A stretch of DNA of 59,150 bases. Source: Henriciella aquimarina. Its GTDB lineage: Bacteria; Pseudomonadota; Alphaproteobacteria; Caulobacterales; Hyphomonadaceae. The stretch's first letter is position 1; each line of letters begins with the position of its first letter. Positions 17,412 to 45,467 of this stretch are shown piece by piece. Under the pieces are notes generated by a model. That model was given only the letters and a program-made list of their open reading frames with translations. It made no database searches and was not told the DNA's origin. The stretch covers positions 1 to 59,150 of the forward strand of contig NZ_NCST01000092.1 of NCBI RefSeq assembly GCF_002088975.1, written 5' to 3'. The position numbers were made by a program, and so were the translations under genes.

Positions 17412-17634
17412 CCTGGCAACCGGGTCCTACTCAACAGCGGACTAATCGCCTAGCGCCTCCGGCCGCATGCGACAACTGGCAGATTGCGGTTTGGCAAACT
17501 CCGGGCGCGGCCGTCCCCGTGCGAAGGGCTGCCACTTTAGCAAAATGCTGTGTCTCGGTTGACCATCGCTACATTGTTTATGCAAACCCTGATTGCTAGC
17601 TAACCGCCATCTTGAACCGAACCCCGGGCCCTTC

Positions 17635-18537
17635 ATGACGCAACTGACCCATCTTGACCGGCTGGAAGCCGAGAGCATCCATATCCTGCGCGAGGTCGCC
17701 GCCTCGATGCAGAACCCTGTCATGATGTATTCCATCGGCAAGGACAGCTCTGTTCTCTTGCACCTGGCCCGCAAGGCGTTCCATCCGGGGCCGATCCCGT
17801 TTCCTCTGCTGCATGTCGATACGACCTGGAAGTTCAGCGAAATGATCGCCTTCCGGGATGTGCTGAAGGACGATCCGCAGACCGATCTTCTGGTTCATAT
17901 CAATCAGGAAGGTGTCGATCAGGGCATCGGCCCGTTCACGCACGGCTCGGCACTGCATACCGATGTGATGAAGACCCAGGCGCTGAAACAGGCGCTCGAC
18001 AAGTACAAGTTCGATGCGGCCATTGGCGGCGCGCGCCGCGACGAGGAGAAGTCCCGCGCCAAGGAGCGCATCTTCTCCTTCCGCTCCGCGCAGCACCGCT
18101 GGGACCCGAAGAACCAGCGCCCGGAACTCTGGTCGCTCTACAATACGCGCATCAAGCCGGGCGAGAGCGTGCGGGTCTTCCCGATCTCCAACTGGACCGA
18201 GCTCGATATCTGGCAGTACATCTACCAGGAGAATATTGAGATCGTGCCGCTTTATTTCGCCGCCGAACGCCCGGTGGTCGAGCGTGACGGCATCCTGGTC
18301 ATGGTCGACGATGACCGCCTGCCGCTGGAGCCCGGCGAAGAGCCGATGATGAAGACCGTCCGCTTCCGCACGCTCGGCTGCTACCCGCTGACCGGCGCGG
18401 TGGAATCGACCGCCTCCACCATTACCGAGATCATCGAGGAAATGCTGCGCACGACGACGTCTGAGCGCGAAGGCCGCGCCATCGACAAGGATGCGCCCGC
18501 CTCGATGGAGATGAAGAAGCAGGAGGGCTATTTCTGA
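17635..18537 (+). CDS. cysD: Sulfate adenylyltransferase subunit 2 (ATP-PP-loop subunit)
   Basis: 300 residues. The PP-loop is [18 protein letters not shown], followed by [34 protein letters not shown] and [15 protein letters not shown], all typical of CysD. With CysN it makes adenosine 5'-phosphosulfate (APS) from sulfate and ATP. The ORF could begin earlier, but ATG 17635 matches the family N-terminus [17 protein letters not shown]. The stop overlaps the cysNC start by one base. The 223-base upstream spacer has no clear riboswitch; a short AGCA-AAA-TGCT dyad is visible near 17538. Confidence 0.95.
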
Positions 18538-20441
18538 TGAACGCCTATGCAGCCCCCCAATTCGCCGACATCGAGACCTATCTCGACAGCCAGCTGAAGA
18601 AGTCGCTCCTGCGTTTCATCACCTGCGGCTCGGTCGATGACGGCAAGTCCACCCTGATCGGCAGGCTTCTCTACGAGTCGAAGATGATCTTCGACGACCA
18701 GCTGGCCTCGCTGAAGAATGAGTCGAAGAAATTCGGCACGCAGGGTGAGGAGATCGACTTCGCGCTGCTGGTCGACGGCCTGGCCGCCGAGCGCGAGCAG
18801 GGCATCACGATCGATGTTGCCTACCGCTTCTTCTCCACCGACCGGCGCAAATTCATTGTCGCCGACACGCCGGGCCACGAGCAGTATACCCGCAATATGG
18901 CGACCGGCGCCTCGACGGCCGACCTCGCCATTGTGATGATCGATGCGCGCAAGGGCGTGCTGACCCAGACCCGCCGCCACAGCTTCATTGTCTCGCTGCT
19001 CGGCATCAAGCATGTCGTGCTCTGCATCAACAAGATGGATCTCGTCGATTATGACAAGGCGGTCTACGACAAGATCCTGAAGGACTATCGCGACTTCGCG
19101 GCCGATTTCGGCTTCGAGAGCGTGCAGGCCATTCCGGTCTCGGCGCTGGCCGGCGACAATGTCGTCACCAATAGCGACCGCACGCCTTGGTATGACGGCC
19201 CGCCGCTGATGGAGTATCTCGATACCGTCGAGATTCGCGCCGAGGATCAGGACAAGGCGTTCCGCATGCCGGTGCAGTGGGTCAGCCGGCCCAATCTCGA
19301 TTTCCGCGGCTTTGCCGGCCAGATCGTTTCCGGCCGGATCCGGCCGGGCGAGTCGGTGCGTGCGCTGCCCTCCGGGCGCTCCAGCAAGGTGGCGAGCATC
19401 GTGTCCTATAGCGGTGATCTCGATGAAGGTGTTGAAGGCCAGTCCATCACGCTGACGCTCGAGGACGAGATCGACATTTCGCGCGGCGATGTGCTCTGTG
19501 CCGACCAGGCGCCGGCGGAAGTGTCCGACCAGTTCCAGTCGACCATTCTCTGGATGTCCGACAGCGCCATGCTGCCGGGGCGCTCCTATGTGATGAAGAT
19601 CGGTGCCCGCGAATGCCAGATGCAGGTGACCGAACAGCGCTACCGGGTGGATGTGAACACTCGCGCCCATGAGGCGGCCAAGACGCTGAACCTGAACGAG
19701 ATCGGCGTCTGCAACATCGCGCTCGACCGCGAGATCGCTTTCGATGCCTATGGCGACAATCGTCGCATGGGCGGGTTCATCATCATCGACCGGATGACGA
19801 ACGAGACCGTCGGCATGGGGCTGATCAATTTCGCGCTGCGCCGGGCCTCCAATATTCACCGCCAGTCGCTCGATGTGAGCAAGGAGCTGCGGGCCTCGAT
19901 GAAGGGGCAGAAGCCGGTCATCCTCTGGTTCACGGGGCTCTCCGGCGCCGGCAAGTCGACGGTGGCCAACATTGTCGAGAAGCGCCTGGCGGCGATGGGC
20001 AAGCACACCTACACGCTCGATGGCGACAATGTCCGCCACGGGCTCAACCACGATCTCGGCTTCACCGATGCCGACCGGGTGGAGAATATCCGCCGGGTGG
20101 GCGAGGTCTCGAAGTTGATGGTCGATGCCGGCCTGATCGTACTCGTCTCCTTCATCTCGCCCTTCCGCGCCGAGCGCCGGATCGTGCGCCAGATGGTCGA
20201 GGATGGCGAGTTCTGGGAAGTCTTTGTCGACGCGCCGCTGGAGGTTGCCGAAAGCCGTGACGTGAAAGGCCTCTACAAGAAGGCGCGGGCCGGCGAGATC
20301 AAGAACTTCACCGGCATCGACAGCCCCTACGAGGCCCCGCTCGAGCCGGAGGTCCATCTGGAGACCGACAAGCTCTCGCCCGAAGACGGGGCAGACCGTG
20401 TGATCGCGATGCTGCAGCAGGCGGGCGTGCTCTCCAGCTAG
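18537..20441 (+). CDS. cysNC: Bifunctional sulfate adenylyltransferase subunit 1 / adenylylsulfate kinase
   Basis: 634 residues in two fused parts. Residues about 15-440 are the GTPase Cys[37 protein letters not shown] and NKMDL. Residues about 455-634 are APS kinase Cys[31 protein letters not shown] and the [18 protein letters not shown] region. Together with CysD it converts sulfate to APS and then to PAPS, the donor for sulfotransferases. CysN-CysC fusions are common in alphaproteobacteria. No PAPS reductase or sulfite reductase gene is nearby, and a sulfotransferase lies 12 kb downstream; this suggests, but does not prove, a role in sulfation rather than only cysteine synthesis. Confidence 0.95.
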
Positions 20442-20465: not shown

Positions 20466-21518
20466 CTAGCTCGCCAGCGATTTGTCGGTCTTGGTCTGCT
20501 CAAGGGCCGGCCAGACATGCGGACGCCGGCGGTGCAGCACGATCGGGTCCCAGTTCATCGCCCGGACAATGGCGAAGCTCGAGAGTTGCCTTTGCCGCTG
20601 GATGTCGCGGCGGGCTTTCATCGTCTCCCCGAACCGCCCGAAGGCTTCGCCCAGTCCGCGCCGGATCGAACGCGCGCGCGGCCGGCCGAGCGCGGAGAGG
20701 TAAAGGTAAAGCGTCAACACAATATGGGCGGGAAGCGACAGCACCAGCAGCACGGGCGGTGTGTTCTTGAGATAGGTGGTGAGCCGGTTGCGGGTGCCGA
20801 GCCGGACAGTGAAATCGCTGAGGCGGCCGGTAATCGCACTGCCATGATGGCCGATAATGGCGTCCGGCACGAAGATGCAGCGCTCCCCCATCAGGCGCAG
20901 CCGGTAGCCGAGATCGACGTCCTCGCAATAGCAGAAATAGCTTTCGTCGAACCCGCCGGCCTGAAGGAAGGTGTCCTTGCGGATCATGGCGCTCGCGCCG
21001 CACGGCGAGAAGCATTCGCCTTCCTCGGGCAGGGCCTCGCGGGCGGCACCGAATCCGCCGCGCCAGGGGAAGCCGTAAACCGAATAGCAGTCGCCTGTGC
21101 CGTCCAGGCGTTTCGGGTTTTCCGCGTCGATCTGCGCGCTGGCAAAAGAGGTGACATCCGGATAGCGCTCGGCCGCGTCGGCGAGCTTGGCCAGCCAGGT
21201 CGGACGCGGTTCGCCATCGGGGTTGAGCAGGATCAGCCAGTCGCCCTTGGCTTCGCGCGCGGCGATATTGTTCGCTTGGGCAAAGCCGAGATTGTCGTCC
21301 ATGCGCAAGAGCCGGGCATTGTCGAGCCCTTCAAGGTCCAGCCGGTCGGCTGAGCCGTCGCTGGAGGCATTGTCGATGACGATGACTTCCGCCGGTCTCA
21401 GCGTCTGCGATTTCAGATGGTCCAGCGCGGACTGGATGAAATCCCCGCCATTATAGTTCACGATGATGACGCTGGCGCTAAATGGGGCGGACAACTTTTG
21501 GTACTCCAAGCCATTCAC
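20466..21518 (-). CDS. Glycosyltransferase family 2 (rhamnosyltransferase-like)
   Basis: Up to 350 residues. The GT-A domain spans residues about 15-240: ASVIIVNYNGGDFIQSALDHL, VIVIDNASSDGSADRL, LGFAQANNIAAREAKGDWLILLNPDGE, and CYCEDVDLGYRLRLMG near the active-site Asp. A C-terminal hydrophobic stretch (PPVLLVLSLPAHIVLTLYLYL) and a basic tail suggest membrane association. It transfers a sugar from a nucleotide donor to a glycan; the N-terminal pattern is like rhamnosyltransferases, and rml genes are in the window. The start is uncertain: GTG 21518 has no ribosome site, while TTG 21494 has GGAG nine bases before it. It is convergent with cysNC. Confidence 0.85.
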   Translation of the reverse strand: MNGLEYQKLSAPFSASVIIVNYNGGDFIQSALDHLKSQTLRPAEVIVIDNASSDGSADRLDLEGLDNARLLRMDDNLGFAQANNIAAREAKGDWLILLNPDGEPRPTWLAKLADAAERYPDVTSFASAQIDAENPKRLDGTGDCYSVYGFPWRGGFGAAREALPEEGECFSPCGASAMIRKDTFLQAGGFDESYFCYCEDVDLGYRLRLMGERCIFVPDAIIGHHGSAITGRLSDFTVRLGTRNRLTTYLKNTPPVLLVLSLPAHIVLTLYLYLSALGRPRARSIRRGLGEAFGRFGETMKARRDIQRQRQLSSFAIVRAMNWDPIVLHRRRPHVWPALEQTKTDKSLAS

Positions 21519-25649: not shown

Positions 25650-27785
25650 ATGAGAGAGGTTCGCTGGTCCGGTCTGCCCGACCATGTCCTTGCGGGGGAG
25701 CTGTCATACCTCGCCGAGCGCAACCATCTGCCGCTCGCCATCATCGGGCCGGGGCCGACGATCAACGATATCGATCCGTCCCATATTCCCGACGAGGTCA
25801 TCCGGTTCCGCATGAACATGTTCTTCACCGAGCCGACACCGCGTTTCGGCGAGCGTGTGGACGGCTATTTCTGGGCCAACGACCTCGACGTTATGTACGA
25901 GCTGATGCAGTCGACCCACGAGAACAAGGTCTATGACTACAAGCTCTTCTTCACGCCGAACGAGATCAGGCCGGAGCGCCCCTCCGGCAAGGCCATTGCC
26001 GACAAGTGCCGGAAGATCCTGCATCCGCGTTATGACCATTGGTGGCTGATCGGGCATCATCCCGACGTCGTGCGCAACATGCTGCTGCGCCCGCTTCCGA
26101 CACAGACATTCCAGGCCGTGGCGACCGCCCTCATCCTTGGCTTCCGGGAGATTCACCTTGTCGGGATCGACATGTACCGCAACAAGGGCCAGCGCTACGC
26201 GCACGACTATTCCGAGGACATCAAGTCCCGGCTTGCCGAGAAGCACAGAAAGCCGGGCTACGAGCCGACCGCGCATTCCGAGCGCCGGGATCTCGCCTTC
26301 CTGTCGCACCTGATGAAGACCTTCCCGGATGCGAAGATATACAATGCGTCCTCGGTATCCCCGCTGAAAGATGTCCTGCCTGATTCGCCGATCATGCATG
26401 GCACGCCGATCGAGGTTCCGAGCGGCCCGATCGTCCCCCGTCCGACAGGTGGCCTGATCGACCCGCAGACTGAAGTGCAACGTCTGAGCGCCGAAGTGGC
26501 GGCCTTGCGGTCAAGCCGGTCGTTCCGGGTGGGGCAGGCCATCTTCAAGCCGGCGGCCAAGATGAAACAGGGCCTGGAAGGCTTGAGAAGCCTTCCAAAA
26601 CGCCGGGAGTCCGACGCAGATCCCGCAAGGGTTCGGGCCAATGGGGTGCCGGCGCCGTCGCTGGACAGCCCGGCGCCCAAAGGGCCGGCGCGGCCTGTCC
26701 TCGCCAAGGCTGGCGCCGCTGCCGCCAGTGCCCTGCCGCCGGCTGTGGCAAAGAAGCCGGTCCTGGCAGCCTCCGAGGTGGAGCTGCTGGCCATCTGTCA
26801 CGAAACCTCGTCGAAGACCGGCGGCTATCGCCCGATCAAGAACTATGTCGAGGAAACGCGGGCGGCCGGGCGCGACACGGTGCTGCTCGACCTTCGAAAG
26901 ACGGATCCCTCGCAGCAGGCGCATGTCCCGTTCCCGAAGGCCAAGAAGACGATCATCAATTCCATTGCCGCCTTCGAGTGGAAGGCGGTGAACGACTTCC
27001 TGGCCGCGAAGCCCGACAATGTCTTCCTCTATCTCCACGAGATGGACTGGATCTTCGAGCGCATCCAGAGAGAACAGCCAGAACTCTACAAGAACATCGT
27101 GAAGGGCGTTCAGTCCTATCCGGTGCTATGTGTCTCGAAGCTGCAGCAGGACTATATCGAGCGGACCTTCTCCCCGCCTTACACGAAGCTGGTCTACAAC
27201 GTCGCCTCCGACGGCAATCTCGATCTCTCAATGGTCCGGAAGGGGCCGGAAGACACAGGCGGCGAGAAGACCATCCTGATGGTGGGCACGATCCAGCGCC
27301 GGAAGGGGCCGGAACTATTCGGCCAGGTCGCCGACCTCGCCAAAGAAAAGGGCCTGCCCTACCGTTTCATCTGGGCCGGTCACCAGACCGAGCCTGTCGG
27401 TGAGCTTTCGGAAAATGTCGAGTGGATTGGCCACCAGCCGGCCGACAAGCTGCAACAGCTTATCCGGCAGGTCGACCGTTTCATGCTCACGTCCTGGGAT
27501 GATCCGTTCCCGCTTTCGTGCCTGGAGGCGCTGAGCTGGGGCGTGCCGATTGTCAGCTATCACTACAGCGGCGTCTGCGAGATCATCGAAGGTATGCCGG
27601 GCTGCGGCGTTTTCCATACCCGTGAGCCCGGCGAGGTCCTGAAAGAGCTCCAGCGTGCAATCGGCGATCCGGCTGATCACATGCGGTTGTTTTTTCATGC
27701 CCGGCCTTTCATCGACTGCAATCACTTTATAAGGTTTCTCGACGAAGCGACGGCCAGTGCGCCGAGTACCCCTGTCATGGCATGA
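25650..27785 (+). CDS. CST-I-like (GT42) sialyltransferase domain fused to a GT4 glycosyltransferase
   Basis: 711 residues. The N-terminal 250 resemble Campylobacter Cst-type alpha-2,3-sialyltransferases: LAIIGPGPTINDIDPSHIP, FRMNMFF, ATALILGFREIHLVGIDMY, and HSERRDLAFLSHL with the conserved His (residue 209). A linker at 288-318 (SRSFRVGQAIFKP) and a Pro/Ala-rich stretch follow. Residues about 375-700 are a GT-B glycosyltransferase of family 4: ILMVGTIQRRKGPELF and DDPFPLSCLEALSWGVPIV, in which the first acid of the EX7E motif is Asp618 and the second is Glu626. The protein could add a nonulosonic acid and a second sugar in succession. It abuts the preceding fusion gene. The acceptor and the exact donor acid are unknown. 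Confidence 0.8.
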   Translation: MREVRWSGLPDHVLAGELSYLAERNHLPLAIIGPGPTINDIDPSHIPDEVIRFRMNMFFTEPTPRFGERVDGYFWANDLDVMYELMQSTHENKVYDYKLFFTPNEIRPERPSGKAIADKCRKILHPRYDHWWLIGHHPDVVRNMLLRPLPTQTFQAVATALILGFREIHLVGIDMYRNKGQRYAHDYSEDIKSRLAEKHRKPGYEPTAHSERRDLAFLSHLMKTFPDAKIYNASSVSPLKDVLPDSPIMHGTPIEVPSGPIVPRPTGGLIDPQTEVQRLSAEVAALRSSRSFRVGQAIFKPAAKMKQGLEGLRSLPKRRESDADPARVRANGVPAPSLDSPAPKGPARPVLAKAGAAAASALPPAVAKKPVLAASEVELLAICHETSSKTGGYRPIKNYVEETRAAGRDTVLLDLRKTDPSQQAHVPFPKAKKTIINSIAAFEWKAVNDFLAAKPDNVFLYLHEMDWIFERIQREQPELYKNIVKGVQSYPVLCVSKLQQDYIERTFSPPYTKLVYNVASDGNLDLSMVRKGPEDTGGEKTILMVGTIQRRKGPELFGQVADLAKEKGLPYRFIWAGHQTEPVGELSENVEWIGHQPADKLQQLIRQVDRFMLTSWDDPFPLSCLEALSWGVPIVSYHYSGVCEIIEGMPGCGVFHTREPGEVLKELQRAIGDPADHMRLFFHARPFIDCNHFIRFLDEATASAPSTPVMA

Positions 27786-27851: not shown

Positions 27852-29393
27852 ATGGCGAAGATCCTCTTCATCAACCCCAACAAATGGGGCCGAGGCATCA
27901 CGGCGATCTGGATTCCGGCCCATGCCGGCCTGCTCCGGGAGAAGGGACACGAGGTCGAACTGTTCGACGCCACCTTCTATACCGAGTGGACCGTGGATGA
28001 GATCGGCTACAATACCCAGAACGGCCAGTACAAGCCGACCGACTACAAGAGCCACATCACCTATAATGATGGCTCGGTGGTCGAAGACCTCAAGGCGAAG
28101 GTCGCGGAGTTCAAGCCGGACATCATCTTCTGGTCGGCCATCTCTTCCCACATCCACGGGGAAGGCGAGTATGTGAACATCCAGTACGGCTATGAACTGG
28201 CCGAACTGTTCAAGGACGATGCGCTCCTGGTGACGGCGGGCCTGCAGGCCACGGCCGCGCCGAAGGATGTGCTCTCAGGGCTGTCGGCCATCGACATCCT
28301 GATCCGCGGCGAGTCCGAGAAGGCGCTCGGCGAGATTGCCGACGCGATCGATGCCAAGAAGAACAGTTTCGAGGCGATCAACGGCCTCGCGATCAATGGA
28401 CCGGAAGAGGTCAAGACGACCCCGCCCCAGCCCATCCTGCGCGACCTCGATGAACTGCCGGCCTACGACTATTCGCTGTTCGAGCCGCAGACCTTCTGGC
28501 GCGCCTATAATGGCGAGGTGGTGAAGGCCGTCGATTATGAGATGTCGCGTGGCTGCATCTATGCCTGCGAGTATTGTGTCGAGACCGTGATCCAGAGCTA
28601 TTACGGCTTCGACAAGACGACGCGGTCCGGGGCCATCCAGCGCGCGCCGGAATACCTGCGCAGCAAGTCGCCGCAGCGGATCATGGAAGAGATGACGCGC
28701 CTGCACAAGGAGCAGGGCGTCACGCTTTTCCGCTGCCAGGATACCAACTTCCTGACGATCACGCGCTCGACGCTGACCGAGCTGGCCGAGCTGATGGATG
28801 CCAGCGATCTCGACATCAAGCTCTATATCGAGACGCGTCCCGAAGGCATCAACGAGAAGACGATCGACCTGCTGAAGAAGCTCAAGGTCGATGGCATCGG
28901 CATGGGCGTCGAGCTGTCCACGCAGGATTTCCGCGAAGACAAGCTGCGCCGTTTCGCCTCGCAGGACCGCATCATCAAGGCGTTCCAGGTCCTCAAGGAG
29001 GCCGGCATCAAGCGCACCTCCTACAACATTATCGGCCTGCCGGATGCTGACGAAGAATCCATCAAGAGCACGATCGAGTTCAATCGCCTGATTGATCCGG
29101 ACAATGTGACGGTGGCCTTCTATTCGCCCTATCAGGGCACGGCCCAGCAGAAGAAGGGCAACGAGCTCGGCTATTTCGACGAGTACGAATTCCACGTCGA
29201 CGGCCAGCTGCGCACGATGAGCCACGACACGCTGGTCGATCCCGACACGCTTTGCTTCTACAAGGCGAAGTTCAAGGATCTCGTCGAGCATGGTCTGGAC
29301 GACCTCGAGGCCATGAAGGCGGAGTATTTCCGCGAGCAGGCCGCGCAGGACGGCGGCGTCGGCGCTTCCACGCCGAAACGTGTGAGCGCATAG
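27852..29393 (+). CDS. B12-binding-type radical SAM protein
   Basis: 513 residues. Residues 1-165 form a cobalamin-binding-like Rossmann domain (ILFINPNKWGRGITAIWIPAHAGLLREKGHEVELFDA). The radical SAM domain follows, with the 4Fe-4S motif C235-x3-C239-x2-C242 (SRGCIYACEYC), then VTLFRCQDTNFL and SYNIIGLPDADEESIKSTIEF. Such enzymes do methylations, rearrangements and other radical reactions. A DxHxxG-type cobalamin motif is not obvious, so B12 dependence is unproven. It lies between the sialyltransferase fusion (66-base gap) and an aldo/keto reductase (12-base gap), which suggests a job in sugar or precursor modification. Confidence 0.85.
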   Translation: MAKILFINPNKWGRGITAIWIPAHAGLLREKGHEVELFDATFYTEWTVDEIGYNTQNGQYKPTDYKSHITYNDGSVVEDLKAKVAEFKPDIIFWSAISSHIHGEGEYVNIQYGYELAELFKDDALLVTAGLQATAAPKDVLSGLSAIDILIRGESEKALGEIADAIDAKKNSFEAINGLAINGPEEVKTTPPQPILRDLDELPAYDYSLFEPQTFWRAYNGEVVKAVDYEMSRGCIYACEYCVETVIQSYYGFDKTTRSGAIQRAPEYLRSKSPQRIMEEMTRLHKEQGVTLFRCQDTNFLTITRSTLTELAELMDASDLDIKLYIETRPEGINEKTIDLLKKLKVDGIGMGVELSTQDFREDKLRRFASQDRIIKAFQVLKEAGIKRTSYNIIGLPDADEESIKSTIEFNRLIDPDNVTVAFYSPYQGTAQQKKGNELGYFDEYEFHVDGQLRTMSHDTLVDPDTLCFYKAKFKDLVEHGLDDLEAMKAEYFREQAAQDGGVGASTPKRVSA

Positions 29394-29405: not shown

Positions 29406-30314
29406 ATGACATTGACGAACAAGATCGTGATCGGCACCTGGCCGCTGAGTGGTGATTTCGGCGTACGCTCCCTGGCCGATATCGAGACCTGCATCACCCG
29501 GGCCATGGATGCCGGGATCCGCAGTTTCGACACGGCGCCCAATTACGGCCTCGGCTTCGCCGAAAGCGCGCTGGGCATGGTTCTGGCCGGCGAGGACGAC
29601 GTGCAGGTCTTCACCAAGTGCGGGAACGTGCCTTTCGTGGGCAAGGATTTCTCGCCGGACGCGCTGGAAGCCTCCATCGGCAATTCGCTGAAACGCCTGA
29701 AGCGCGATAGCATCGAAGGCGTCTTCCTGCACAATCCGCGGACCGAGGTCGAGGATTACGAGCCCGTGATCGAGCGTCTCGAGGCGCTGAAGGCAAACGG
29801 CGTCGTCAACCAGATCGGCCTCAGTGGTGCGAAGGGATATGACTATTCCGCCGTGCCGGAAGGTCGGCTGGACATGTTCCAGCAGGATGCCAACCTGCTC
29901 TATCTCAAGGAGGCCGATGGCGCACGGCCGCGCTTCAGGACCTTCTTTGCCCGCTCGCCGCTGGCGACCGGGATGCTGTCGGGCCGGCTGTCGGAAAACT
30001 CGACCTTCCCGCCGGACGATCACCGTTCGGGGTGGCTGAAGGGCGAGCGCCTGTCTTCTATCGTCAAGCGTGTGGAAGCCATTGAGAGCGTCCTGCCGGA
30101 CGGCATGAGCGTGCCGTCTGCGGCCCGGCGCTTCCTGATGCACCATCCTTCCATTGACCGCGTCATCTGCGGCGTTGGCCGCCCGGAACACCTGGGCGGC
30201 CTTATCGAGGATGCTTCGGCCGGCCCGCTGCCGGAAGAGGTGATCAACGCCCTGGTGGCCCTGCACGACCGTGACTTTGATCGGCCGGCCGGGGAGGCGG
30301 GGCTTGGCTACTGA
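29406..30314 (+). CDS. Aldo/keto reductase
   Basis: 302 residues of the AKR TIM-barrel family. FDTAPNYGLGFAESALG holds the Asp and Tyr of the catalytic tetrad, VFTKCGNVPF the Lys, and GVFLHNPR the His. The C-terminal VICGVGRPEHL is an NAD(P)-phosphate-binding-like segment. It probably reduces or oxidises a sugar or keto-sugar with NADP(H). Tightly placed after the radical SAM gene, its end overlaps the start of the ABC permease gene, so it is part of one operon. The substrate is not deducible. Confidence 0.88.
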   Translation: MTLTNKIVIGTWPLSGDFGVRSLADIETCITRAMDAGIRSFDTAPNYGLGFAESALGMVLAGEDDVQVFTKCGNVPFVGKDFSPDALEASIGNSLKRLKRDSIEGVFLHNPRTEVEDYEPVIERLEALKANGVVNQIGLSGAKGYDYSAVPEGRLDMFQQDANLLYLKEADGARPRFRTFFARSPLATGMLSGRLSENSTFPPDDHRSGWLKGERLSSIVKRVEAIESVLPDGMSVPSAARRFLMHHPSIDRVICGVGRPEHLGGLIEDASAGPLPEEVINALVALHDRDFDRPAGEAGLGY

Positions 30315-31209
30315 TCTTTCCGCGGACAAGGAAGAGCGGGGCCGGGAAGACGCGGCCAAGGCCCGGTCCGGGCGCTCCATTGTCTACAGTCCGGGCTATC
30401 GGGCCCGCAGCGGCCCGATAGAGGCGATTTCCGCCTATGCGCGGGAAATCCGGCGCGACCGCTGGCAGGTCTGGATGAACTTCCTCAGGAAGTTCAAATC
30501 CTCCTACAGCACGACCTTTGCCGGCATGTTCTGGGCCTTTGCCCTGCCACTCGTGCCGATCGGCGCCTATACGCTGCTGGCGACCATGCGGGTGGTGTCG
30601 ACGACCGATGACATGTCGCACCTGGTCTATATCGCCCTCGGGGTGACGCTGTATGCCTATGTCACCGCGCCGATCGAGCAGACCATGGCTGCGCTCAAGA
30701 GCGACAAGGCGCTGCTGTCCTCGACCCATATCGGTGTGTTCTCCGTCATTCTCGGACGGTTCGGTACGGTCGTGTTCGAGACGCTGGTCCGCCTTGGCCT
30801 GATCGCGATCCTGATGGTGTTCTTCGGAGGGTATCCGACGCACTGGTGGTCGGCAGCCTTCCTTCCGCTGCTGGGCGTGGTCTTCCTGTCATCGCTCGGC
30901 GTCGGCCTGCTACTGGCGATTTTCAATGCGGTGGCGGCCGACGTGGAGAAGGTGGTCAGCGTTATCCTGCGGTTCGGGGTCTTCTTTTCGGCGGTCTTCT
31001 TTCCCATGCCGCAGGGCGGGCTCTCCGGCCAGTTGACCGATTTCAACCCGATCCACACCTATGTGAACGGGCTCAGGACCCTGCTCGTCAAAGGCTATCT
31101 GCCGGATCCTGCCGTCATGGCCTGGACCGGAGGCCTTGGCATGGTGATCTTTCTTGTGGCGATTACCCTTTTCTACAGGGCCGAGCCGCATCTGCGAGCC
31201 TCGGGATAG
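30304..31209 (+). CDS. ABC-2 type polysaccharide export permease (Wzm/KpsM family)
   Basis: About 301 residues. A cytoplasmic N-terminus (IEAISAYAREIRRDRWQVWMNFLRKFKSSYSTTFAG) leads into six predicted membrane helices, as in Wzm/KpsM-type exporters of O-antigen or capsule. The start is inferred as TTG 30304 because GGGGAGG lies 6-12 bases upstream; it overlaps the preceding stop. The helix MFWAFALPLVPIGAYTLLATM corresponds to the first membrane segment. It pairs with the ATPase gene nine bases downstream and should move a lipid-linked glycan across the inner membrane. Confidence 0.87.
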   Translation: MATDLSADKEERGREDAAKARSGRSIVYSPGYRARSGPIEAISAYAREIRRDRWQVWMNFLRKFKSSYSTTFAGMFWAFALPLVPIGAYTLLATMRVVSTTDDMSHLVYIALGVTLYAYVTAPIEQTMAALKSDKALLSSTHIGVFSVILGRFGTVVFETLVRLGLIAILMVFFGGYPTHWWSAAFLPLLGVVFLSSLGVGLLLAIFNAVAADVEKVVSVILRFGVFFSAVFFPMPQGGLSGQLTDFNPIHTYVNGLRTLLVKGYLPDPAVMAWTGGLGMVIFLVAITLFYRAEPHLRASG

Positions 31210-31218
31210 GCGGGCGCC

Positions 31219-32559
31219 ATGACCGAAGCATCGAACGACGTCATTCTGAAGGCCTCCGGAGTCTACAAGAAATTCGGGCGCAGCAACCTCGTCGCCCGGC
31301 GCCAGCTAGCGGCACGCCTCGGGGCTGTCCTGACGGGCCGGTCTGCCCGGCACAAGCGTATCCGGACAGGGGATTTCTGGTCGCTCCAGGACATCAATCT
31401 CGAAGTGCAACGCGGTGAGGTTCTCGGGGTGATCGGACTCAACGGGGCGGGCAAGAGCACGCTGCTCAGGGTCCTCTATGGCCTGATGGCACCGGACCTC
31501 GGCGAGATCGAGGTGAATGGTGAGACCGGCGCGCTGATCGAACTGGGGGCCGGGTTCGAGACAAGCCTCTCGGGCCGGGAGAACGTCTTCATCAAGGGGG
31601 CCCTGATGGGCCGGTCGCGGCGCGAGATGGAAGAGATGTTCCCGGCCATTCACAAGTTTTCCGAGCTCGGGGACTTCATCAATTCGCCGATCTCCGGCTA
31701 TTCCTCCGGCATGCGCCTGCGGTTGGCCTTTGCCATCGCATCGACCATAACACCGGATCTCCTTCTGCTCGACGAGATCGTTTCGGTGGGTGATTTTAGC
31801 TTCAAACAGAAATGCCGAAGCCGCCTCAATGAGATGTCGGAACGCGCCGGCGTCGTCTTTGCCTCGCATTCGATGAGCGACATCCGGTCGATGTGCACCA
31901 AGGCCATCGTGCTCCAGAAGGGCCAGATCATGTTCCGTGGCGAACCCGATCTCGCCATCGACTTCTATACCGACATGCAGGCGCAGATCGAATCCAAGCG
32001 CGTCGCCCCGGCTCGCAAGGAACCGGAAAAGGCGCCCCCGAAAGAGCCCGCGAAAGCGGCTTCGCCGGCGAAGACGCCCGACAGTCCCGAAGCCAACATC
32101 ATCAAGGACACACGTTTTGGCGTGATCGCGATGGACCGCAAGAAGGTCTCGCGCGCCGACCATTACTGGAAAATGGATGGCAAGCCCGCCAACGTCCTCG
32201 ATACGTGCAAGCCGGCCTCCTTCCATTTCGAGATCGAATGCCTGGAGACCATCCAGGATATCGAGATCGGCCTGATGATCTGGGATGAAAAGGGCAACAA
32301 GCTCGCCCCGATCACGACCGAGTTCGTCCAGCCCGACCGCCTGCGGGAGGCCTCCGGCAAGGTAAAGGGCGAAGTTTCCCTGCCCCAGTTCTCGCTGGTG
32401 CCCGGCCGCTATGTCACCACGATTGCCATTTCCGAAAAGGGTCTGCTCCTCTACCGGAATGTCCTTGAGGAAATCAGCGTCGTTTCGAGCGCACGCTCCA
32501 TCGGCGTGGTGCGCCTGCCTGCGGAATGGAAATTCGGAGACGACGCCGACGTCGCCTGA
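31219..32559 (+). CDS. Polysaccharide export ABC ATPase with C-terminal glycan-binding-like domain (Wzt type)
   Basis: 446 residues. The nucleotide-binding domain has Walker A GLNGAGKS (73-80), signature YSSGM (161-165), Walker B LLLLDE (181-186) and the switch His in SHSM. A Pro/Lys-rich linker (about 255-295) is followed by a C-terminal beta domain (about 300-440) of the Wzt carbohydrate-binding type. In Wzt systems that domain recognises the non-reducing end cap of the finished glycan before export, so chain-end modification by the methyltransferase or sialyltransferase genes is plausible. It is translated directly after the permease and is the last gene of this + strand operon. Confidence 0.9.
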   Translation: MTEASNDVILKASGVYKKFGRSNLVARRQLAARLGAVLTGRSARHKRIRTGDFWSLQDINLEVQRGEVLGVIGLNGAGKSTLLRVLYGLMAPDLGEIEVNGETGALIELGAGFETSLSGRENVFIKGALMGRSRREMEEMFPAIHKFSELGDFINSPISGYSSGMRLRLAFAIASTITPDLLLLDEIVSVGDFSFKQKCRSRLNEMSERAGVVFASHSMSDIRSMCTKAIVLQKGQIMFRGEPDLAIDFYTDMQAQIESKRVAPARKEPEKAPPKEPAKAASPAKTPDSPEANIIKDTRFGVIAMDRKKVSRADHYWKMDGKPANVLDTCKPASFHFEIECLETIQDIEIGLMIWDEKGNKLAPITTEFVQPDRLREASGKVKGEVSLPQFSLVPGRYVTTIAISEKGLLLYRNVLEEISVVSSARSIGVVRLPAEWKFGDDADVA

Positions 32560-32577: not shown

Positions 32578-33321
32578 TCAGGCCTGATCGTATCCGAAGC
32601 GCTTCAGCGCGTCCTTTTCCAGCTCGAGCATCTTCTCGACCTGTCGTTCAGACCAGTCGGTCCGCAGGGTCTGGGACTGGTTTTCATGTTTTTCGCCGGG
32701 CGGCCGTTTCAGCCCGTATTGCTCGCACAGCGATCCGAACCCGGCATACAGGTTTTCCATTTTCAGAACATGGTCGACGGCGAATGTCCCGGAGCTCTGG
32801 CCGAAATACTCATCGTACATGCTGGAAACGAAGCCCGGCTGGTGGCTGATCACATTGTCGATAAAGGTGCTGAAGGAGGGGGCATGGCAGGGCGCGATGC
32901 GCCGCAGCGGATGCCAGACCCCTTCGCCGATCCATGTGTCGAAGTTCGGCCGGCCGTCCGCGTCCAGCGTCTCTTCCCGGTCCGTGACTTTCGGGCTCAA
33001 CAGGTAGCGCCACCAGGATTCATACCATGTCAGCGGGTGCCGGACCGTTGCAAAGGAGACGTCGTAAACGTCGTCCACTTCATGTAGGCGGCAGTGCTTG
33101 ATGTCGGATTTCGCATTGAGGCGGGCGGTCGCGACACATCCCGGATAGGCCGAGCGCCAGAGATGCGCCGCACTCGTGCCGCCGCATTTGGGAATATGCA
33201 GGAAATAGAGAATGGCCGGGCGGTTCGCCTGCCGCCGGGCCTGGGCCTCCTGCATGCGCAGGTCCCGTGGGAGCTCGCGCGAGGTTTTCAGGCTTTCGAT
33301 ATCGGTGACGAAGAGGGGCAT
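32578..33321 (-). CDS. PAPS-dependent sulfotransferase family protein
   Basis: 247 residues. The 5'-phosphosulfate-binding loop is LHIPKCGGTS (41-50), and a 3'-phosphate site appears as VRHPLTWYESWWRY (Arg94 and Ser102). This is the layout of carbohydrate sulfotransferases. Residues between 105 and 240 are less conserved. It would move sulfate from PAPS to a sugar hydroxyl, and the genes for PAPS synthesis (cysD, cysNC) and PAP disposal (cysQ) are 12-17 kb upstream. Start ATG 33321 follows GGAGGA by six bases. It is convergent with the Wzt gene and separated from neuB by an intrinsic terminator, so it has its own promoter. Confidence 0.8.
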   Translation of the reverse strand: MPLFVTDIESLKTSRELPRDLRMQEAQARRQANRPAILYFLHIPKCGGTSAAHLWRSAYPGCVATARLNAKSDIKHCRLHEVDDVYDVSFATVRHPLTWYESWWRYLLSPKVTDREETLDADGRPNFDTWIGEGVWHPLRRIAPCHAPSFSTFIDNVISHQPGFVSSMYDEYFGQSSGTFAVDHVLKMENLYAGFGSLCEQYGLKRPPGEKHENQSQTLRTDWSERQVEKMLELEKDALKRFGYDQA

Positions 33322-33440: not shown

Positions 33441-34328
33441 TCAAACCGAAGCCGGTTCGCCCCATTTCAGCTTGCGGCGCGTCTCGATCTCGATAGGCAG
33501 AAGCTCTTCGGCCTTGTAGGTCATGCCGTCGGCGACAAGGTGAAGGTCGCGAACCAGCTTGCGCAGACCGTCGGGCTCGAGCGAGGCGGCGTGGTCGGTG
33601 CCCTTCCAAGTGCGGTCGAGCGTATAGTGGCGTTCGATCCATTCCGCGCCGAGCGTGTAGGCGGCGACATCGAGGGCGATGCCGAGATGGTGGCCGGAAA
33701 AGCCGATGGCTTCCACCCGGTCATCGAACTTATTCTTCAGGCGCGTGATTTCGAAAAGGGCAGTCTGGTCCGCCGGGACCGGATAACCGGACGTGCAGGC
33801 GTAGAGGAGAAGATCCTTGTTGCGGCCTTTCTTCTCGAAGAGCTGGACGATGTCCTCTTCTTCTTTCTGCGTCGTCATGCCAAGCGAAAGCTGGATCTTG
33901 CCCTTGAACTCATCGCACAGGACGCCGAGCATTTCGAAATGGAGGTTGGAGGCGGACGGGACTTTCAGGAATTCGGGCTGGAGAGACGCCATTTCGCGCG
34001 CCGAGGTGACATCCCAGACCGAGGTCGAATAGCCGATGCCGGTTTCCGCGCAATGGTCCATCAGCTCCCTGTGCTGGTCCACGGTGAATTCGAGATACTC
34101 ACGGTGGGCCCCGTAAGTGTCGCCATACGCGTTGCTCGGCACGGGGTGGGGCGCATCATACTGGTCGGGCGGAAGCAACTCCCGGTTGTTCCGCTTCTGG
34201 AATTTCACGAAATCTGCGCCACAAAACACTTTGGCGATGGAAATCATTTCCTTGGCGATTTTTATATCGCCTTTGTGATTACAGCCGATTTCGGCGACTA
34301 CCTTTGGGGCTTGCACATCGCGCTCCAT
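33441..34328 (-). CDS. neuB: NeuB-family nonulosonic acid synthase, lacking the C-terminal SAF domain
   Basis: 295 residues covering only the TIM barrel. Characteristic segments are VVAEIGCNHKGDIKIAKEMI, GADFVKFQKRN, GYSTSVWD, LSLGMTTQKEEED, LYACTSGYP and IGFSGHHLGIALDVAAYTLGAEWIERHYTLDR. The family condenses phosphoenolpyruvate with an N-acetylated hexose to form sialic, legionaminic or pseudaminic acids. Typical NeuB proteins are about 340 residues with an antifreeze-like C-terminal domain, which is absent here. The start ATG 34328 matches the family N-terminus. It follows a GT-B gene by 70 bases on the same strand. With the NeuA-HAD gene it should feed the CST-I-like transferase. Confidence 0.85.
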   Translation of the reverse strand: MERDVQAPKVVAEIGCNHKGDIKIAKEMISIAKVFCGADFVKFQKRNNRELLPPDQYDAPHPVPSNAYGDTYGAHREYLEFTVDQHRELMDHCAETGIGYSTSVWDVTSAREMASLQPEFLKVPSASNLHFEMLGVLCDEFKGKIQLSLGMTTQKEEEDIVQLFEKKGRNKDLLLYACTSGYPVPADQTALFEITRLKNKFDDRVEAIGFSGHHLGIALDVAAYTLGAEWIERHYTLDRTWKGTDHAASLEPDGLRKLVRDLHLVADGMTYKAEELLPIEIETRRKLKWGEPASV

Positions 34329-34398
34329 ATTGTTCTCAGACTTTACTCCGATATCCCAAGTCGGGTGACGGATACAACCATACAATGCCGTCATCTAG

Positions 34399-35550
34399 CT
34401 ATGCCTGAAGCGCAGACATGAAGGCTTTGTCACCGGCCAGAAGAAGGTGGTCCTCAAGGGGTTCACCGCCTGTATTTGCCGGAAAAGTGCCGGAATTCCG
34501 GAAGGTTTCGAGGGCCTGTTCGACGCGGTGGCTTGCCGAACAGTTTTTTATCAGGGGGTGATGAAACGCCGGCATGACGTCCAGCGCCCCACAATCACAG
34601 AATATGACGGGTATCCCTGTGGCCAAGCACGATATGAACGCTGTGGAGGAGACGGTCACCGCGACGTCCACCGCCATGTCGAGCTTCTCGGGCAGGCGCT
34701 CGCGGCCGGCAATCAGGACCTTCTTGCCGGCGGCCGCTTCAATATCGCCCACTTCCGGCTCCGGCTGGGAGGGGTGGAGCTTGACCGTCAGCTCGTATGC
34801 CGACAGCGCCCGGATGAGGGGTAGGTAACGCTCATCCCAGTCGCTGCGGTCCATACGCCCGTAGCGCAGGAAGCACTGGTCGAGAAAGAGGACCCGCAGG
34901 GGCTGTCCGGGATCGGGTGCGGCATAGCCCGTTTGCAGGCTGGCAGGCCGCAGGAGCGGGCCTGTCACGTGGATTGCGCCGGGGGGGATGCCCCATTGCT
35001 GCCTGAGCCGCGTCTTCATGGCTTCCCCGAAGACCAGCGCCTTGTCGGGCCGTGTGATGCCGAAAAAATGATTTCTGTAGAGGAGCCTGTTCAGCAGGAC
35101 GCGGCGGCGTGGACGCGGCGTCGTGAGAGGTAACCGGTCCAGCCGCGCGGTGAGCGGCCACAGCCAGCGGCGGGCGCCGAAACTGCGTCGGGTGTCGAAG
35201 GTCAGGTATCCATCCTGGACCAGCGTCCGCGGAACGCCCATGGCCTTCGCCGCCATGCTGACGGCCTGCGCCGTCCAGCCCTGGTCCTGGAACTGGAGGA
35301 GCTGGCGGCCCTCCAGCATCTCACGCGCGACCTCCTGGGCCAGCACCCACGCGGTCCCGGGGGACTGGCCGGCCGGGGCGGGGAGCAGCGTCACCGGGAT
35401 GTTCAGTCTGGCGAGCCGGTCAAAGGTCCCGGTCGCCAGGACATGCTCGATACCGGCTATGCCGCGGTCGAGCATGGCCTCGATCATTGCGGCATGCGTG
35501 TCCGATTCGCAGAAGGCGACGACATGTTCGAGAGGGCGGTCAGAGGGCAT
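34399..35550 (-). CDS. GT-B-like glycosyltransferase / polysaccharide polymerase-like protein
   Basis: 383 residues. The C-terminal half shows LTVKLHPSQPEPEVGDIE and AVTVSSTAFISCLATGIPVIFCDCGAL, patterns found in CDP-glycerol-type and polysialyltransferase-like GT-B enzymes and related capsule proteins. The N-terminal half has HVVAFCESDTHAAMIEAML, typical of a GT-B first domain, and LQFQDQGWTAQAVSMAAKAMGVPRTLVQDGY. It may transfer or polymerise nonulosonic acid or another acidic unit, since it precedes neuB in one transcript. This is an inference from pattern; I am not sure of the family. Confidence 0.55.
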   Translation of the reverse strand: MPSDRPLEHVVAFCESDTHAAMIEAMLDRGIAGIEHVLATGTFDRLARLNIPVTLLPAPAGQSPGTAWVLAQEVAREMLEGRQLLQFQDQGWTAQAVSMAAKAMGVPRTLVQDGYLTFDTRRSFGARRWLWPLTARLDRLPLTTPRPRRRVLLNRLLYRNHFFGITRPDKALVFGEAMKTRLRQQWGIPPGAIHVTGPLLRPASLQTGYAAPDPGQPLRVLFLDQCFLRYGRMDRSDWDERYLPLIRALSAYELTVKLHPSQPEPEVGDIEAAAGKKVLIAGRERLPEKLDMAVDVAVTVSSTAFISCLATGIPVIFCDCGALDVMPAFHHPLIKNCSASHRVEQALETFRNSGTFPANTGGEPLEDHLLLAGDKAFMSALQA

Positions 35551-35715: not shown

Positions 35716-36591
35716 ATGGCGCCAATCGATACGCTTGTGGTCACGCGCACACGCAACCGGCCGGCTTTCCTGCGCCGGGCTGCCGAGAGCCTCTGCGCGC
35801 AGACGCATAACGCCTTTGCTTGGGTCATCGTCAATGATGCAGGCGAGCGCGAGCCGGTCGATGCTGTCCTGGAAACGCTTCCTGAGACCCTGAAAGCCGA
35901 AGTCATCCATCTGGACGAGAATGCCGGCATGGAGGCGGCGGGAAACATCGGCATGCGCAGCCGGTTGGGCGAGGGCGCCGACTATGCAGCCCTTCATGAC
36001 GATGACGACCGCTGGGCGCCGGACTTCCTTGTCCGCATGACGGGGGCCCTGTCGTCAAAACCGGACCTGGCAGGCGTGGTATGCGAGTGGCAGGAAATCC
36101 TCGAGACGGAGGCCGGGGGGGCGATCACGCCGAAAAGCGAGGGCGCGGCCCAGTCAGCCGGCGCACTCACCCTTCCGCGCCTGGCCGTACGTAACCGCTT
36201 TCCACCCATAGCCCTGCTCTTTCGCAAGACGGCCTGGGAGGCTGCCGGCGGGTTCAACGAGACGCTGCCCGTCCTTGGAGACTGGGATTTCAACTTGCGC
36301 CTCCTCCTGCAGGGCGACCTTGCCAGCCTGGAGGAGACGCTGGCCTATCAGCATGTCCGCGAACAGGCTTCCGGCACCACGGCCAACTCCATCACCGGGG
36401 CGCGGGACCTGCACAAGGCAATGCGCACGCACCTCATCAATCATCATGTGCGCCAGGATATCGAAGCCGGCCGGCCTGGGTTGGGCGCCTTGCTGGCGCA
36501 GGCCGATATCCTCGAGGACGGGTTGGCGCGAACCTCGCTGAAAGCCCGCGTGCAGCGGCTTCTCGGCCGCTCCGGCGAGACCGCGAACTAG
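35716..36591 (+). CDS. Glycosyltransferase family 2
   Basis: 291 residues. The GT-A domain shows DTLVVTRTRNRPAFLRRAAESLCAQTH, WVIVNDAGEREPVDAVLE, GADYAALHDDDDRWAPDFL (DxD-like metal site) and NETLPVLGDWDFNLRLLLQG. It transfers a sugar to a glycan acceptor in the cytoplasm. The gene is divergent from the GT-B gene, with a TTGACA at 35650-35655 in the spacer that may be a -35 element. It ends in a four-base convergent overlap with the DUF2793 gene. The donor is unknown. Confidence 0.85.
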   Translation: MAPIDTLVVTRTRNRPAFLRRAAESLCAQTHNAFAWVIVNDAGEREPVDAVLETLPETLKAEVIHLDENAGMEAAGNIGMRSRLGEGADYAALHDDDDRWAPDFLVRMTGALSSKPDLAGVVCEWQEILETEAGGAITPKSEGAAQSAGALTLPRLAVRNRFPPIALLFRKTAWEAAGGFNETLPVLGDWDFNLRLLLQGDLASLEETLAYQHVREQASGTTANSITGARDLHKAMRTHLINHHVRQDIEAGRPGLGALLAQADILEDGLARTSLKARVQRLLGRSGETAN

Positions 36592-37535
36592 CAGAAGAAG
36601 AAGTACCGGAAGGTCTGGGCCGAGCCGAACCGGTTCTCGATCCAGAGACTGTCCGTGACCGCCCCGACATTCAGCTGCACATCCGCGCCTGTGGTGCCCG
36701 AAAGCGCCTGGTCGGGATAGAGGCCGAGCTTGCCGCCATTGGCGAGCGCAAGGAGGCCCGGAGTGGTGCCGGTGTCGAAGCAGACAATGCCGGAATAAGA
36801 GACCTGCGGAAATGTTTCCGAGAAGAGCGCGATCGCCATCATCCCTCCGGCGGCAGGCGGAACGACAAGCACAGCCGCATCATCTGCGATCATGACTTCT
36901 CCGGAATGCAGGCCCGTCGCGAGGGTTTCGCCTGTCTCCGACTTCACCGTCAGCCCGGTTGTCCAGGCCGACCCGTCGGCGCTGACCTTGACGCTGAAGG
37001 CGTCGTCGCCGGTCAGGCCGATTTCGGCACGCGCGCTATAGCCGGTCTGGAAGACCAGGCTTGCCGTATCCGGCGTGTCAGCCTTGTTGACCGTCAGGCG
37101 ATGGCCGTCGCCTTCATGGGTGAACAATGCGGCGGGCGCGCTCACCGCCAGGCGGTTCGTCGTGTCGGGCGTGGCGTTGATGCCGAGAAGGGCCGGCTGG
37201 TCGAGCGCGCCCTGCGCCGTCCAGTCAGCGCCGCTCCAGACGCGCATCTGCTGGTCATCGCGGATCCAGGCCTGCCAGCCGGCCTCCGGCACAAGAAAAT
37301 CCCAGGCGCCATCATACCAGGCTGCGACCTCTCCGGCGTGCCCGGTCCAGGTGCCTTGCGGGGCCGGGCCGACAATATAACGCGCGCCCTCGGCTGGGGC
37401 GGAGGGCGGCTCCGGCTGAATGGTCTCCACCGCGAGCTGGACCAGCGCGTCGAGGCGCTTCAGGCTCTCGTTCAGGGTGACATGTTTCTGGGCCTGGTTC
37501 TGTTGCAGGTAAGGCAGGAGAAGATTGGGTGTCAT
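36588..37535 (-). CDS. DUF2793 domain-containing protein (phage-type)
   Basis: 315 residues. The N-terminal 100 match DUF2793: NLLLPYLQQNQAQKHVTLNESLKRLDALVQLAVE, then EGARYIVGPAPQGTWTGHAGEVAAWYDGAWDF. This domain is found in phage or gene-transfer-agent tail-associated proteins of alphaproteobacteria. The remainder is beta-rich with repeated Ala/Gly/Thr segments, ending SLWIENRFGSAQTFRYFFFC with a terminal Cys. No other phage gene is near. It may be a cell-surface or tail-fibre-like protein kept in the glycan locus; its function is unknown. Confidence 0.7.
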   Translation of the reverse strand: MTPNLLLPYLQQNQAQKHVTLNESLKRLDALVQLAVETIQPEPPSAPAEGARYIVGPAPQGTWTGHAGEVAAWYDGAWDFLVPEAGWQAWIRDDQQMRVWSGADWTAQGALDQPALLGINATPDTTNRLAVSAPAALFTHEGDGHRLTVNKADTPDTASLVFQTGYSARAEIGLTGDDAFSVKVSADGSAWTTGLTVKSETGETLATGLHSGEVMIADDAAVLVVPPAAGGMMAIALFSETFPQVSYSGIVCFDTGTTPGLLALANGGKLGLYPDQALSGTTGADVQLNVGAVTDSLWIENRFGSAQTFRYFFFC

Positions 37536-37693
37536 GGCGGCTATTCCCGTTCGGTGTCGGATAACTGCGCACAGGATAGTTGACGGCCCTTCCGGTCGGA
37601 TATCTACAGGGGCAGGGTCGGCACCGGCTGGCCGAGGTCCGTGCCGCTACAGGCAATGTCGCGAAATCCAGGCGACCCGCAGGGAGAAGAAGT

Positions 37694-38866
37694 GTGAAAA
37701 CTGTGGCAATCATCCCCGCCCGCGGTGGGTCCAAGGGCATTCCCGGAAAAAACCTGAAGCCGATCCGCGGCCGCTCGCTCCTGCGCCGTGCCGTCGAGGC
37801 GGCAAGCGGCGCTTCCAGCGTGTCGGAGGTCTATGTCACATCCGACGATGAGACGATCCTGGCCGAAGCTGCGCAGAGTGGAGCGAAGACGATCCGGCGG
37901 CCGGCAGATCTGGCCAATGATACCGCCAGTTCGGAAGCCGCTCTCCTTCACGCCATTGGCGTCATCGAGGAGAACGGCGAAAGCCCTGACATTATCGTTT
38001 TCATGCAGTGCACCTCGCCCTTCGTGCAGGCTGGCGATGTCGAAGGCGTCGTGGCGCCGCTGAAGCAAGGCGACGCCGACTGCGCGCTGACGGTCACGCC
38101 CTTCCACGGTTTCCTATGGAGGCCCGAGGGCAAGGGCGTGGAGCCTGTCGGCCATGAAAAGGAGCATCGGCCAAGACGCCAGGACCGTGACCCGGCCTTC
38201 CTCGAGACCGGCGCGGTCTATGCGATGAAGGCCGAGGGGTTCAAGGCGGCCCGGCACCGCTTCTTCGGTACTGTTGCCCACCACGTTGTGGAGCCCCGGC
38301 GCTCCGTTGAAATCGATGAGCCGCTCGACCTCTCCATCGCCGAAGAAATTGCCAACGAGATCGAGACTGCCGGCGTGGAGGATATCTTCCCCGAAAAGGT
38401 CTCCGCCCTGCTGCTCGACTTCGATGGCGTCCTGACCGACGACTGCGCCATCGTCGATCAGGACGGCAAGGAGGCGGTCAGGGTCAGCCGCTCGGACGGG
38501 ATGGGGATCGAGCGCCTGAAAAAGCACACCGATATACAGGTGTCCGTGGTGTCGAAGGAGACCAATCCCGTTGTCGCTGCGCGCTGCAGGAAGCTCGACG
38601 TTCCGTGTGTGTACGGCGTCGAGGACAAGGTCGCCAATGTCACCGCCTGGTCGAAGGAAACCGGCATTCCGCTCTCGGAAGTCGTTTTCGTTGGCAATGA
38701 CCTGAACGACCTGCCGCTTTTCGCGCTTGTCGGGCTTGCCGTCACGCCCAGCGATGCCTTCGAGCCGGTCCGCAAGTCCGCCGGCCTCGTCCTGGACAAG
38801 CCCGGCGGGAAGGGGGCCGTGCGCGAGATCTGCGAACGCCTGATCGCGCGCCGGACGGAGACCTAG
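37694..38866 (+). CDS. neuA: Acylneuraminate cytidylyltransferase fused to a HAD phosphatase domain
   Basis: About 390 residues. The N-terminal CMP-sugar synthase has the signature IIPARGGSKGIPGKNLKPI (residues about 6-24) and later TSPFVQAGDVEGVV and RRSVEIDEPLDL. From about residue 235 a HAD domain follows: LLLDFDGVLTDD (nucleophile Asp242 and Asp244) and GNDLNDLPLF. This architecture resembles animal CMAS and some bacterial NeuA proteins. The first part would activate a nonulosonic acid as its CMP derivative; the second could be a sugar-phosphate phosphatase like that for 9-phosphate or Kdo-8-phosphate. GTG 37694 is preceded by GGAGAAGAA. It is divergent from the DUF2793 gene. Confidence 0.88.
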   Translation: MKTVAIIPARGGSKGIPGKNLKPIRGRSLLRRAVEAASGASSVSEVYVTSDDETILAEAAQSGAKTIRRPADLANDTASSEAALLHAIGVIEENGESPDIIVFMQCTSPFVQAGDVEGVVAPLKQGDADCALTVTPFHGFLWRPEGKGVEPVGHEKEHRPRRQDRDPAFLETGAVYAMKAEGFKAARHRFFGTVAHHVVEPRRSVEIDEPLDLSIAEEIANEIETAGVEDIFPEKVSALLLDFDGVLTDDCAIVDQDGKEAVRVSRSDGMGIERLKKHTDIQVSVVSKETNPVVAARCRKLDVPCVYGVEDKVANVTAWSKETGIPLSEVVFVGNDLNDLPLFALVGLAVTPSDAFEPVRKSAGLVLDKPGGKGAVREICERLIARRTET

Positions 38867-44682: not shown

Positions 44683-44859
44683 TTATGTACTATAGTGTGT
44701 ATTTCAGTAGTGAGGATGCCCACCGTCTGTGTAGGAGGTAACTGGTGCCGAACAGATCCAGCTTGAGAGTAAAGCCTCATCCTTTTTGCGGGCATAGACG
44801 TCAGGATGGCGATCACACTGCCTGCTTTGATAGTTGCACTCAGCTATTGTGACTTGCTT

Positions 44860-45462: not shown

Positions 45463-45467
45463 TACGC

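Follow-up and report, generated by a model that had tools for sequence, protein, structure and literature searches.

The nearest functional precedent for the protein described here is the meningococcal W (NmW) polymerase, in which a GT4 and a GT97 domain bring a GT4 transferase and a CMP-sialic-acid transferase together in one polymerase (PMC10361700). The window analysed here, a stretch of 59,150 nt on the forward strand of Henriciella aquimarina contig NZ_NCST01000092.1 (assembly GCF_002088975.1), encodes a protein that likewise joins a GT4 domain and a CMP-nonulosonate-type transferase in a single chain. The two proteins differ in domain order, which is reversed in the fusion (nonulosonate transferase first), and the nonulosonate domain of the fusion belongs to GT42 by both Pfam and fold. 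They also differ in size (711 aa against 120 kDa), and polymerisation by the fusion is a prediction.

A second group of described systems concerns ABC-dependent glycan assembly, where, according to PMC11231755, a coiled-coil ruler keeps the terminator at its far end apart from the polymerising modules, and the catalytic modules are distributed variably over proteins. Like the Klebsiella O4, O7 and O12 systems (WbbB, ORF6-O7, WbdD) as excerpted there, the locus combines a methyltransferase-coiled-coil protein and Wzm/Wzt with variously spread modules, but it differs by its CMP-nonulosonate GT42 module, by a PhyH domain on the coiled-coil protein and by its marine alphaproteobacterial host. Unlike terminators of the WbbB/WbdD type, the fusion carries no long coiled-coil ruler between its domains. 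In comparison with Cst-I and Cst-II of Campylobacter (CAZy GT42), it has a GT4 partner and is surrounded by a probable KDN pathway, while the stand-alone GT42 proteins of Hyphococcus flavus (P0007 and a copy in stretch L036) are unfused, with separate genes as GT4 counterparts, and P0007 lies in a cluster homologous to that of the fusion. No report of a GT42-GT4 pairing was found among the titles listed from the open-access literature searched. The locus is a rare combination of known folds, set in a coherent nonulosonic-acid context and matched by a natural split-gene counterpart.

Two glycosyltransferase folds in one chain

An earlier note, made from the DNA letters, had proposed a CST-I-like domain and a GT4 domain in one chain, and this is confirmed by Pfam profiles and folds for both halves (Table 1). 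The N-terminal half matches PF06002 (CST-I) with 46.3 bits against a curated cut-off of 25 and adopts the Cst-type GT-A variant fold; profile, sequence and fold matches all fall in GT42, with 21-26% identity to Cst-I and Cst-II in structural alignments. The structure model of this half, built from a 15-row alignment, was good, whereas the full-length model from 6 rows was poor in the N half (10-residue means of 22-50) and was used for the GT4 half only. The description of the first ~250 residues as Cst-type stands, with the above-cut-off profile, the fold and the retained catalytic residues in agreement. The GT42 profile search and structure prediction suggested by the earlier note returned a GT42 profile and fold, and the alternative that it had named, a DUF115/Maf-type fold, did not appear: the Maf flagellin glycosyltransferase (5mu5) is clearly more distant from this half than the Cst enzymes. 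A Maf/DUF115 identity was rejected, as the N half has no PF01973 match at E <= 0.1 and its fold is nearer to Cst; a weak PF01973 match below the cut-off occurs in the relative P0014 only.

Table 1 Positions of the fusion, its parts and neighbouring genes in the window.
Feature	Position (nt)	Strand	Remarks
GT2 glycosyltransferase	20466..21518	-	PF00535 4.4e-24; homologues in H. pelagia and H. flavus
Methyltransferase-coiled coil-PhyH protein, 940 aa	22827..25649	+	syntenic in H. pelagia
GT42-GT4 fusion protein, 711 aa	25650..27785	+	
GT42 (Cst-type) domain, residues ~15-255	25692..26414	+	
His209 codon of the fusion	26274-26276	+	catalytic-base equivalent
Linker of the fusion, residues 259-375	26424..26774	+	
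GT4 (GT-B) domain, residues ~376-706	26775..27767	+	
D618 codon of the fusion	27501-27503	+	D618 and E626 form the EX7E-type pair
B12-binding radical SAM protein	27852..29393	+	PF04055 9.9e-20; next downstream of the fusion
Aldo/keto reductase	29406..30314	+	PF00248; syntenic in H. pelagia
Wzm-like ABC permease	30271..31209	+	PF01061 24.2, just below the cut-off of 26.9
Wzt-like ATPase with Wzt_C domain	31219..32559	+	PF00005, PF14524
NeuB-family synthase	33441..34394	-	PF03102 5.9e-63; sole match in genome
Putative GT-B-like transferase	34399..35550	-	K-L-H-P (HP) motif; sub-threshold PF13579/PF20471/PF07388
GT2 glycosyltransferase	35716..36591	+	PF00535; homologues in H. pelagia and H. flavus
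CMP-nonulosonate synthetase fused to KDN-9-phosphatase/KdsC-like HAD domain	37580..38866	+	PF02348; start from the ORF list, true start may be later

In the alignment with CstII, residues N31, T131, Y156, Y162 and H188 correspond to N56, T151, Y176, Y183 and H209 of the fusion. The last four are invariant in all 15 rows of the N-half alignment, and N56 is identical in each of the 13 rows that cover it. Five CstII positions are changed in the fusion (N9 to P34, Q32 to M57, N51 to A76, R129 to L149 and S132 to Q152). Position 34 is Pro in 8 of the 15 rows, Asn in 4 and uncovered in 3, and position 152 is Gln in 13 and Thr in 2. In CstII, the extract of PMC4202792 gives His188 as the likely catalytic base, with the acceptor contacted by Arg129, Asn51 and Tyr81; Asn51 and Arg129 have no equivalents in the fusions, all six of which carry A76 and L149 instead. 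Judged by these aligned residues, the reaction core is kept while parts of the donor and acceptor surroundings are not, and the five changes mean that the donor and acceptor of CstII cannot be carried over to the fusion.

The C-terminal half matches PF00534 and PF13692 above the cut-off and has a GT-B fold, the outcome of the GT4 profile search and structure prediction that had also been suggested. Its candidate EX7E-type motif reads D618-x7-E626, with the Asp618 named in the earlier note in the place of the first acid; this residue is Asp in all six fusions and likewise in both H. flavus GT4 homologues. The model of this half superimposes on known structures with an rmsd of 10-17 A over ~290 residues and with 2.4-3.5 A when the C domain alone is aligned; the large values probably reflect the domain arrangement in a middling model. 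Conservation is higher in the N half than in the GT4 half (82.9% versus 72.0%).

The linker consists of a short helix, a hinge motif (SSRSFRVGQAIFKP) and a Pro/Ala-rich stretch, with 16 Pro and 23 Ala among 117 residues and a longest Pro-free run of 28. One portion shows homology to the N-terminal end of a stand-alone H. flavus GT4 (BLAST, E 9e-7). A regular expression for the hinge found four proteins, namely the methyltransferase proteins of the window, Henriciella pelagia and H. flavus and the GT4 of L036; it skips the fusion itself owing to spacing, and the homology of the linker is based on BLAST. By a home-made and crude heptad measure, which in other proteins picks up parts of globular domains as well, the fusion has no heptad-like stretch, and the methyltransferase protein has two (residues 346-489 and 493-548).

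The gene cluster and its counterparts in relatives

The stop codon of the methyltransferase-coiled coil-PhyH gene immediately precedes the ATG of the fusion. Wzm- and Wzt-like components have homologues in both H. pelagia and H. flavus, and systems in which the end of the chain is recognised typically have a Wzt_C domain. The putative GT-B-like transferase beside NeuB has a K-L-H-P motif and an S-T-x-F segment that are invariant in all three homologues, and no PDB relative was found with either the single sequence (only match E 1.4) or a 3-row profile. It is possibly a second CMP-nonulosonate transferase.

Several further genes accompany the cluster. A conserved 247-aa protein (32578-33321, minus strand), which has no Pfam match at E <= 1, contains a sulfotransferase-like HIPKCGGT segment. 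The window also has CysD and CysNC genes (17593-20441), and the H. flavus cluster includes a Pfam sulfotransferase. A DUF2793 protein (36588-37535, minus strand) lies within the glycan cluster and is conserved in H. pelagia, while adjacent sigma-70-like and FecR genes (44806-46427, plus strand) lie outside it and likely serve cell-surface signalling. The B12-binding radical SAM protein is 94% identical in H. pelagia, above the values of its neighbours.

In H. pelagia the gene order of the cluster is conserved, with the synthetase at G010:C14:114033-115217. The methyltransferase protein is longer there (1088 aa in stretch L006 compared with 940 aa in the window), with ~129 extra residues in the coiled-coil region, a difference that could relate to glycan chain length.

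The arrangement in H. flavus is different. In one stretch (L035), Wzm, Wzt, the CMP-synthetase/HAD fusion, NeuB, both GT2 proteins and the GT-B-like protein have homologues, and no homologue turned up for the radical SAM protein, the aldo/keto reductase, the DUF2793 protein or the 247-aa protein; the radical SAM protein had none in any of the H. flavus stretches searched. In this cluster the GT42 is a separate 315-aa protein (P0007), which shares 46% identity with the N half and which NCBI already calls an alpha-2,3-sialyltransferase. The GT4 module (38.6%) is carried C-terminally by an 826-aa methyltransferase-coiled-coil protein, and a 433-aa protein of its own contains the PhyH part (44.4%). 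L036 has a 261-aa GT42 gene, whose product is 42% identical to the N half, and, ~340 bp away and divergently read, a 430-aa GT4 gene with the same hinge as the linker of the fusion. The other window proteins tested gave no match in L036 or the adjoining stretch L037.

The same catalytic modules occur in varied combinations, with exchanges at coiled-coil or hinge segments. That both fused domains serve a single glycan is supported most strongly by this re-sorting in H. flavus. At the same time, the split genes indicate that fusion is not required for this, and the GT4 module on the methyltransferase protein that coupling to GT42 is not obligatory. As the halves are separate genes in H. flavus, with GT4 on a different partner, a step in the exchange of modules within ABC-dependent glycan assembly can be seen at this locus.

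Probable source of the nonulosonic acid

NeuB-type synthase, 9-phosphatase and CMP-synthetase domains are all found in the cluster, with NeuB and the synthetase/HAD domains scoring below equivalog cut-offs. The CMP-synthetase/HAD protein reaches 114 bits for PseF (cut-off 205.7) and 100 bits for NF058599 (cut-off 180), and its structural relatives are of NeuA and HAD type. Among solved structures, the relatives of NeuB belong to the Neu5Ac- and pseudaminic-acid-type synthases, and the HAD domain of H. flavus scores 98.8 bits for KdsC versus 97.0 for KDN-9-phosphatase. The genome contains a single NeuB match, in the cluster, and two CMP-synthetase-type proteins, the other being KdsB.

No match to PF02350, PseG or NanE was found in the 99.99%-complete genome of the window, while in 14 control genomes PF02350 matched in 11, PseG in 5 (2 over the cut-off) and NanE in 8 (6 over). 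ManNAc-based and pseudaminic routes look absent from the genome, which leaves KDN from Man-6-P and PEP, a pathway given in the extract of PMC6200933, as the simplest route. KdsA and KdsB genes are also present in the window. In H. pelagia, KdsB and its neighbour precede CysD, at the opposite end of the cluster, and therefore look like housekeeping lipid A genes. NeuB and a synthetase of the nonulosonate type, on the other hand, lie inside the cluster in the window, H. pelagia and H. flavus alike.

Proposed function and alternative readings

Two folds, retained catalytic residues, the gene cluster and separate-gene counterparts all come directly from the computations. The GT42 domain would transfer a nonulosonic acid, likely KDN, from its CMP form to the growing glycan, with His209 as base, and the GT4 domain would add a hexose-type sugar from an NDP donor to the same glycan. 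The pair would most likely form a surface polysaccharide polymerase or part of one, whose chain the methyltransferase-coiled-coil neighbour, a candidate terminator and ruler, may cap before export by the Wzm/Wzt transporter. Both domains are very probably active, and with equal assurance they are expected to act on one glycan, which would be an acidic chain of the cell surface. CMP-KDN is on balance the probable donor of the GT42 domain, and the chance that the backbone, and not a branch or cap, is the product of both domains is slightly short of even. The inference in the earlier note, that two transferases in one chain add a nonulosonic acid and another sugar in sequence, is thereby supported in part. 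The whole reading, a bifunctional enzyme adding nonulosonic acid (likely KDN) and a hexose-type sugar to one glycan as part of a polymerase, is evenly balanced. Against it stand the candidate CMP-sugar transferase beside NeuB, which could be the main nonulosonate transferase, the five changed CstII positions and the scores of the KDN enzymes under their equivalog cut-offs.

It is unlikely that the fusion is instead a WbbB-like terminator, in which the GT42 domain adds a single chain-ending KDN cap and the GT4 domain polymerises. Such an arrangement is found in O12 WbbB, with an N-terminal terminator and C-terminal polymerising transferases in the extract of PMC11231755, and the Wzt here has a Wzt_C domain, but a long coiled coil would not fit into the fusion. 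The heptad stretches of the methyltransferase protein, their lack in the fusion and the short Pro-free runs of the linker make this neighbour the better candidate for terminator and ruler, and for the same reasons the fusion is taken as a polymerase or a branch enzyme. A branch or adapter role, in which the backbone comes from the GT2 proteins, with the transferase at 34399-35550, and the fusion contributes a linker disaccharide or a side branch of KDN and a sugar, has a similarly low probability. It draws on the two GT2 genes and the further putative transferase, all with homologues in both related clusters; nothing speaks directly against it, but in the H. flavus cluster the methyltransferase-coiled-coil protein ends in the GT4 module, at the site of polymerising modules in serotypes O7 and O12 according to the same extract.

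Another donor overlaps with these readings, since they concern role and not donor. That GT42 uses CMP-Kdo or a CMP-nonulosonate other than KDN, with KDN left to the second putative transferase, would agree with KdsA and KdsB in the window, the changed sugar-pocket positions and the KDN assignment under cut-offs, yet it is rather improbable given the housekeeping-like placement of KdsB in H. pelagia and the presence of NeuB and the synthetase in all three clusters. A non-catalytic GT42 domain, serving in glycan binding or docking, might explain the five changed positions, but with the catalytic base and both tyrosines identical in every row and with the N half the better conserved one, it is very improbable.

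A GT42-based polymerase of an alternating KDN-hexose polysaccharide in marine Hyphomonadaceae is a tentative proposal. If true, it would be a second, independently evolved hexose/nonulosonate capsule polymerase, arisen through module swapping within one ABC-dependent pathway. The locus is also a pointer that marine alphaproteobacteria make polysaccharides with nonulosonic acid, perhaps KDN, and the enzyme is a possible tool for KDN glycosides.

Distribution

A full-length search, which scored only candidates sharing most words, found six fusion proteins including that of the window among 7996 scored candidates. An assembly artefact or frameshift as the origin of the fusion was ruled out by this recurrence. 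One relative is named 'glycosyltransferase family 4 protein [Hyphomonas adhaerens]' by NCBI, a name in which the GT42 half has been overlooked. A pattern scan of genome contigs gave one relative, in H. pelagia (49 stretches matched, with the window's own genome perhaps excluded). Within the family of the window, 58 of 105 genomes match, and the whole fusion occurs in two only (G000 and G010); in the other 56 the match is confined to residues 474-700 in the GT4 half. At the level of the order, the N-half profile matched in 3 of 398 genomes, the two with fusions and that of H. flavus (G140) with its two stand-alone copies. In the class sample, the CST-I family matched in 1 of 385 genomes, the window's own; as G010 and G140 are missing from these matches, the sample gives no more than a rough idea of rarity.

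With the single N-terminal sequence as query, no stand-alone relative was found among 314 candidates. A profile of the six N halves found 14 further GT42 proteins among 7997 scored, and the negative result of the single sequence is thus a limit of sensitivity. In one of these, P0018, the GT42 domain precedes a GT8-like domain that narrowly misses its Pfam cut-off (23.6 versus 24.3 bits), possibly a second kind of GT42 fusion.
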